In this document: positions 46,524 to 48,068 of the stretch, piece after piece
Layout: every line of letters begins with the position of its first letter
Position numbering within the stretch: position 1 is the first letter of the stretch
Assembly (NCBI GenBank): GCA_001797315.1
Contig: MGPC01000031.1
Location: forward strand, 1 to 64,000
DNA length: 64,000 bases
Source of the DNA: Curvibacter sp. GWA2_64_110
Lineage (GTDB): Bacteria > Pseudomonadota > Gammaproteobacteria > Burkholderiales > Burkholderiaceae_C
Direction: 5' to 3'
Translations under genes and position numbers: made by a program
Notes under the pieces: model-generated
The model's database searches: none
What the model was told of the DNA's origin: nothing
Seen by the model: only the letters and a program-made list of their open reading frames with translations

Positions 46524-48068
46524 TCAGGCCACGACCTTCAGGTTCTTGCCAGCAGCCTGGTGGTCCAGCGCGGCCTTGATGAAGGCGTTGAACAGCGGGT
46601 GGCCGTCCCAGGGCGTGGACTTGAATTCCGGGTGGAACTGCACGCCGACGAACCAGGGGTGGGCGCTTTGCGGCAGTTCGACGATTTCCGTCAGGTGCTC
46701 GCGCTGCGTCAGGGCCGAGATCACCAGGCCGGACTTGCGCAGGGTGTCAAGGTAGTTGACGTTGGCCTCGTAGCGATGGCGGTGGCGCTCGGTCACTACG
46801 TCGCCGTAGATCTTGTGCGCCAGCGTGCCCTTGGCCACGTCGGAGCTTTGCGCGCCCAGGCGCATGGTGCCGCCGAGATCCGAGTTTTCGTCGCGCGTCT
46901 TGATGCTGCCGTCGGCGTCCTTCCATTCGGTGATCAGGGCGATCACCGGGTTGGGGCTGCCGGGCTCGAACTCGGTGCTGTTGGCGTCCTTCAGGCCGGC
47001 CACGTGGCGGGCGAATTCGATCGTGGCCACCTGCATGCCGAGGCAGATGCCCAGGTAGGGCACCTTGTTCTCGCGGGCGAAGCGCGCGGTGTTGATCTTG
47101 CCTTCGATGCCGCGTTTGCCGAAGCCGCCCGGCACCAGGATGGCGTCGAACTTGGCCAGGCGCGAGACGGTGTCGTCGGTGATGGTTTCCGAGTCGACGT
47201 GCTCGATCTTGACGCGCACATGGTTTTTCATGCCGGCGTGGCGCAGGGCTTCGTTGACCGACTTGTAGCTGTCGGAGAGGTCGACGTACTTGCCAACCAT
47301 GGCAATGGTGACCTCGCCCTGCGGGTGCTCGGTCTCGTAGACCAGGTCGTCCCAGCGCTTGAGGTTGGCTGGCGGCGTGTTCAGGCGCAGCTTGTCGCAG
47401 ATCAGGCCGTCCAGGCCCTGCTCGTGCAGCACGCGCGGCACCTTGTAGATGGTGTCGACGTCGGGCATGGAGATCACACCCCACTGCGCGACATTGGTGA
47501 AGAGCGAGATCTTGTCGCGTTCGTCGTCGGGGATGGCACGGTCGGCACGGCACAGCAGGGCGTCGGGCTGGATGCCGATCTCGCGCAACTTCTGCACCGT
47601 GTGCTGGGTCGGCTTGGTCTTGAGCTCGCCAGCGGCGGCGATCCACGGCACGTAGGTCAGGTGCACGAAGGCGGCGTTGTTCGGCCCCAGGCGCAGGCTG
47701 AGCTGGCGCACGGCTTCGAGGAAGGGCAGGGACTCGATGTCGCCCACGGTGCCGCCGATTTCGACGATGGCCACATCAACCGCGTCCGGCGTGTCGAAGC
47801 CGGCGCCGCGCTTGACGAATTCCTGGATCTCGTTGGTGACGTGCGGGATGACCTGCACCGTCTTGCCGAGGTAGTCGCCGCGGCGCTCCTTCTCGAGCAC
47901 GCTCTTGTAGATCTGGCCGGTGGTGAAGTTGTTGGCCTTTTTCATGCGCGTTTCGATGAAACGCTCGTAGTGGCCGAGGTCGAGGTCGGTTTCTGCGAGG
48001 GAGGCTGAGGCGATTCCCTTGCCAAGGGAGGACACCACACCGCCGGTGACGAAGACAAATTTGGTCAT
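46524..48068 (-). CDS. pyrG: CTP synthase with a 41-residue in-frame deletion in the synthase domain
   Basis: CTP synthase aminates UTP to CTP using ATP and glutamine. The frame is open and 514 residues long, against about 545-555 in the family. After [17 protein letters not shown] it jumps to [12 protein letters not shown]. The stretch equal to E. coli residues 27-67 is missing, including the KLDPYINVDPGTM loop with Lys40 and the HGEVFVTDDGA part. The junction (47993/47994) shows GCA, the codon expected on both edges. The rest is intact: [31 protein letters not shown], and the glutaminase Cys in GICLGMQ with HPEF. As read, the enzyme should not be able to phosphorylate UTP. A real lesion, a second gene elsewhere or an assembly fault are all possible. 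Confidence 0.9.

Follow-up and report, generated by a model that had tools for sequence, protein, structure and literature searches.

CTP synthase (CtpS, or PyrG) has been described as an essential, universally conserved enzyme, and a salvage route turns cytidine into CTP without CtpS, according to the sections of the source cited here (PMC4126345). This salvage requires uridine-cytidine kinase (Udk). In the Drosophila enzyme, K38 contacts the transferred phosphate, and the activity of the K16A and K38A variants was 'dramatically reduced', as stated in the excerpt used here (PMC8325340). The E. coli N-terminus is longer by two residues, so Drosophila K38 corresponds to E. coli K40 (PMC5405848, passage on residue numbering). 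Broken genes in draft genomes have also been described. A survey reported, in the part cited here, that many putative bacterial pseudogenes stem from assembly errors (Cooley and Wright 2024, PMC11017572), and a second source, in the passage concerned, grouped conserved regions with multi-context regions as trouble for metagenome assembly (PMC11479545).

The window, which is the whole stretch of 64,000 nucleotides analysed here, carries a pyrG gene that was compared with these systems. Like members of the PyrG family (TIGR00337, and PF06418 with a glutaminase domain), the encoded protein scored above the family cut-offs and was 96% identical to a full-length protein of the same genus (genome G010). 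Unlike them, it lacked 41 residues of the synthase core, including the catalytic lysine, and no natural counterpart of this form was found in the genus, family, genome_contigs and viral_contigs searches.

The pyrG frame and its junction

Between Ala25 and Glu26 of the window protein, 123 bases, or 41 codons, were absent (Table 1). The alignment to 1s1m, the E. coli structure sequence, fell into two pieces (residues 2-26 of the query over 3-27, and 7-504 over 47-540), with Ala25 suiting residue 26 or 67 and Glu26 suiting residue 68; the absent residues correspond to E. coli 27-67, or equally 26-66, and include K40. Profile matches were divided in the same region: the Pfam CTP_synth_N profile was hit in two separate parts (positions 1-23 and 64-265), and the models for PyrG in NCBIfam likewise matched in two stretches. 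TIGR00337 reached 680 bits against a cut-off of 462.75, also in two stretches, the best of which covered profile positions 67-526 of 526. Aligned with the genes of G010, G023 and G001, the gap was exactly 123 bases in each case. G010 gave the best full-length pyrG match in the genus search and served as the reference for both the gap and dN/dS.

The P-loop (codons 9-18) was retained, as was the glutaminase domain, whose alignment reached almost to the C-terminus against 1s1m and ran to the end against G010. The catalytic Lys40 and the KLDPY-NVDPGTM segment were absent from the frame, and searches of the rest of the assembly did not find them. The in-frame loss of E. coli residues 27-67 with Lys40 and the loop segment, in a 514-residue open frame with an intact glutaminase half, had been proposed in the first-pass annotation, and the frame and the 1s1m and G010 alignments bear out each of these points.

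Table 1. Positions of pyrG, its parts and the yardstick neighbours in the window
Feature	Position	Strand	Remarks
Enolase	44028..45311	-	Downstream, full-length frame; yardstick neighbour
DAHP synthetase I family gene (presumably kdsA)	45668..46522	-	Full-length frame; yardstick neighbour
pyrG (CTP synthase)	46524..48068	-	514-aa open frame, 41 internal codons absent
Remaining synthase domain and glutaminase domain	46527..47993	-	96% identity to full-length G010 protein
Junction, codon 25 (Ala) abutting the codon of E. coli Glu68	47993..47998	-	Shared CGC; 123 bases fewer than relatives
pyrG N-terminal piece, codons 1-25, P-loop included	47994..48068	-	

The edges of the gap in G010 read ...CTCGC|T on the left and ...GGCGC|A on the right, with three bases (CGC) in common, which agrees with the 3-base microhomology at an in-frame junction noted earlier. 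At this offset, at least three shared bases occurred at 11% of positions in the G010 gene, and over offsets of 30-300 bases at 6.5%; the microhomology is therefore weak evidence of mechanism. The reading frame was kept across the loss, as a random join would do one time in three. No Ns were present in the window or in the next 60 kb of the 228-kb contig. A collapse between long direct repeats was ruled out, as only three bases were in common. Hairpin skipping was also rejected, because the 172-base G010 stretch spanning the site was no more stably folded than shuffled sequences (z 0.66).

The missing segment and second pyrG copies in relatives

The genus search covered 26 genomes, own included, 25 of which gave a pyrG match. 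The 41-residue segment was complete in 22 of the 25 other genomes, and the remaining three provided no coverage of it: two had later fragments only (G008 and G022) and one had no match (G017). A family draw of 120 genomes, each at least 90% complete and together representing 119 genera, gave a match in 119; one genome (G001) belongs to both sets. Residues 26-66 were present in 117 of the 119 other genomes of the draw, the exceptions being G043, with no match, and G110, where a contig begins with a C-terminal fragment. These family counts rest on match ends only, and the matches that span the region fell short of the query by no more than about 8 residues, too little for a 41-residue loss. Since all 22 genus-mates and 117 family genomes that reach this site carry the segment, the loss in the window is not an alignment accident. 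The alignment with nearest relatives that had been proposed as a check thus found the short form in none of the genomes covering the site.

A scan of genome_contigs for the shortened spacing gave two hits; the pattern fixes the bases GGCAAGGG and so covers one codon choice there, and closely related genomes may be missing from the set scanned. One hit (L041, Micromonospora) was rejected because it is not pyrG, and the other (L042, the Rhodocyclaceae MAG fen_1000) was rejected as a clean short pyrG because of an 'nn' join after GKG. No match to the pattern was found in viral_contigs. Among plasmid records, the best ten of 95 matches spanned the query almost fully, at about 1.6 kb, the full gene length.

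The assembly holding the window comprises 3.40 Mb in 41 contigs, with completeness given as 95.56%. The genome-wide search for a second pyrG, also suggested in the first-pass annotation, was run with PF06418 on this 41-contig draft and recovered a single gene, hit in two parts of the same frame, and no second pyrG. Likewise, neither the missing DNA of G010 (queried with about 99 of the 123 bases) nor the 41-residue peptide (in a search run without a positive control) was found elsewhere in the assembly.

Second full-length copies were present in one of 25 genus-mates (G023, with copies 95% and 83% identical) and in one of the 119 other family-draw genomes (G079). The extra pyrG of G023 (L005, L028) could be a true duplicate or could stem from contamination, which is listed at 4. 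In G079, the start coordinate of one copy coincides with that of the CTP synthase gene on a plasmid of Methylibium petroleiphilum PM1 (NC_008826), and therefore plasmid second copies exist in the family. These copies, together with the incomplete recovery of the genome, leave some room for a real deletion, with an intact second pyrG on chromosomal sequence missing from the assembly or on an unbinned plasmid and with the short copy as a very young pseudogene. This explanation is unlikely, as a second full-length copy was rare in both draws and the short gene is without clear decay, as described below.

Selection on pyrG and the supply of CTP

Measured against G010, dN/dS was 0.068 for the remaining pyrG, compared with 0.077 for eno, 0.089 for kdsA, 0.074 for coaBC and 0.100 for dut, the last three being the names we assume for these neighbours. 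Changes unique to the window genome in pyrG numbered 33 synonymous and 7 nonsynonymous, whereas three relatives had 24-30 and 3-5, respectively. These were the highest values of the four, yet eno of the same genome carried 17.5 synonymous and 12.5 nonsynonymous changes. By these ratios, the remaining pyrG shows signs of purifying selection like that on its neighbours. Since the gene is not clearly decayed, any loss was very recent or never happened. An artefact should leave relatives intact and the remaining gene without decay, and both were found, the former in the genus and family draws and the latter by dN/dS.

The normal dN/dS of the remaining codons, and an open frame that keeps the P-loop and the glutaminase half, would also suit a 514-aa protein that works as a CTP synthase without residues 27-67. 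Such an enzyme is very unlikely, because the missing residues include the lysine whose replacement by alanine dramatically reduced the activity of the Drosophila enzyme, as worded in the cited excerpt (PMC8325340), and are retained by every relative with sequence there, and because the genome_contigs scan yielded no clean short form. A real and fixed deletion in which CTP comes either from a core working without K40 and the NVDPGTM loop or from an unknown PyrG-independent route would be very improbable.

Rescue by cytidine had also been considered in the first-pass annotation, and a Udk-type kinase for it was not found above the cut-off in the window genome. Indeed, none of the 26 genus genomes, own included, had Udk above the cut-off, which was strict, the control having been detected in 12 of 14 genomes and above the cut-off in only seven. 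Weaker matches occurred twice in the window genome (21.6 and 20.7 bits over 40-51 residues) and once in G009 (80 bits). CMP kinase was present in the window genome, but needs CMP. The PfkB-type nucleoside kinases of Burkholderiales may accept cytidine. Judged from gene content, the known cytidine route to CMP seems absent, and with no Udk above the cut-off, a dead sole PyrG should therefore be lethal.

A recent deletion in cells fed cytidine, or in a sample that mixed short and full-length cells, would be in line with the in-frame junction, its three shared bases and a contig that passes through it without Ns. This scenario is nevertheless quite unlikely given the Udk result, which is tempered by the seven of 14 controls that passed the cut-off and by the PfkB-type kinases that may take cytidine. 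The more remarkable reading raised earlier, a viable cell with the short pyrG as its only copy, is not supported: no Udk passed the cut-off, and the relatives covering the site all carry the segment.

Assembly of the pyrG start

Conservation along pyrG was binned over 18 full-length genus loci (153 pairs). Identity was 96% in bases 1-60 and 91% in the next 60. Exact runs of at least 27 bases occurred in 42% and 35% of pairs in nt 1-60 and 61-120, respectively; the remaining bins had values of 0-28%. The gap's left edge, at about nt 75, falls inside the most-shared part, and the right edge, at about nt 198, falls in an ordinary bin (9% of pairs); therefore, the conservation argument is good for the left edge only.

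Breaks near the start of pyrG were found in other drafts. Two other assemblies had N-runs in the first 80 pyrG codons, bearing in mind that some N stretches in the sequences as retrieved are masking and not gaps. In the Rhodocyclaceae MAG (L042, 1301-2040), pyrG carried two 'nn' joins, one of which loses much of the same segment. In a genome from another genus of the family (G106; L093, G106:C4:10801-13400), more than 300 Ns followed GHYERF, with the same residues repeated beyond; this repetition suggests that the N-run is a scaffold gap at which two ends overlap. Both genes resemble the window gene in being broken within the first 80 codons, and the former in missing much of the same segment, whereas their joins carry Ns and the window junction carries none.

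Additionally, contig ends cut pyrG near codons 112 (G006), 147 (G011), 90 (G019) and 150 (G076), and at later positions in G008, G022, G110 and G121. In a single-contig genus-mate (G004, L022), the pyrG frame is broken near G004:C1 3116620-3116630, perhaps through a sequencing error in an essential gene. As with the assembly-error pseudogenes of the survey (PMC11017572), the window gene is broken in one assembly and intact in close relatives; the cases described in the cited part of that work are frameshifts and internal stops, whereas the window pyrG has an in-frame loss of 123 bases.

In about 168 kb aligned to G010, no second gap of at least 40 bases missing from the window assembly was found, the next-largest missing stretches being 39 and 38 bases. 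This total combines 47 kb, in which gaps of at least 12 bases were listed and alignments shorter than 500 bases were dropped, with 121 kb, in which gaps of at least 24 bases were listed and alignments below 1500 bases or 78% identity were dropped; only gaps inside alignments were counted. Many similar gaps across the genome were thus not seen in the aligned sequence, and the assembly is therefore not of poor quality overall. G010 itself lacked, within these alignments, ten stretches of 42-210 bases, coding or not, so indels of such size do occur between the two genomes.

Some further differences between the window and its relatives were observed. Collinearity with the fetched stretches of G010, G012, G016, G021 and G023 stops near 40.7 kb of the window. 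The portion at 1-40700 carries core genes, including those for alanyl-tRNA synthetase (1506-4130) and DNA polymerase III alpha (36149-39622). An alanine-glycine-rich reading frame (52453-52755) adjoins several length differences relative to G010 at 52268-52661.

Taken together, we favour a draft-assembly error, with a probability of about 0.78, the organism's real CTP synthase being full length. The start of pyrG is nearly identical among related species, and assembly graphs would tend to break there when DNA of such species is sequenced together; the two ends were then probably joined wrongly, and the 123 bases would have been lost. We infer both this error step and an origin of the assembly from a metagenome, or from a draft of another kind that is liable to wrong joins. 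Against an assembly error stand the lack of Ns, the 228-kb contig, the lack of any repeat longer than 3 bases or unusual hairpin, the kept frame, the ordinary right edge, the lack of a second gap in the aligned sequence and the natural indels of similar size between this genome and G010. The probability of an assembly error was lowered by 0.02, and that of a hidden second copy raised by 0.02, in view of the ordinary conservation at the right edge and of the plasmid-borne second pyrG in the family. An artefact had been named in the first-pass annotation as the simpler alternative; it is favoured by the intact relatives, the undecayed remainder, the failure to find a second copy or displaced piece in this assembly, the lack of a Udk above the cut-off and the early pyrG breaks in several other assemblies, and is not proven by them.

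If the short pyrG were real, it would overturn the view of the PyrG synthase core as indispensable. The likeliest lesson is one of caution, since the conserved pyrG start was broken in several of the drafts examined, and where pyrG appears to be lost in a draft, the reads should be checked before auxotrophy is claimed.
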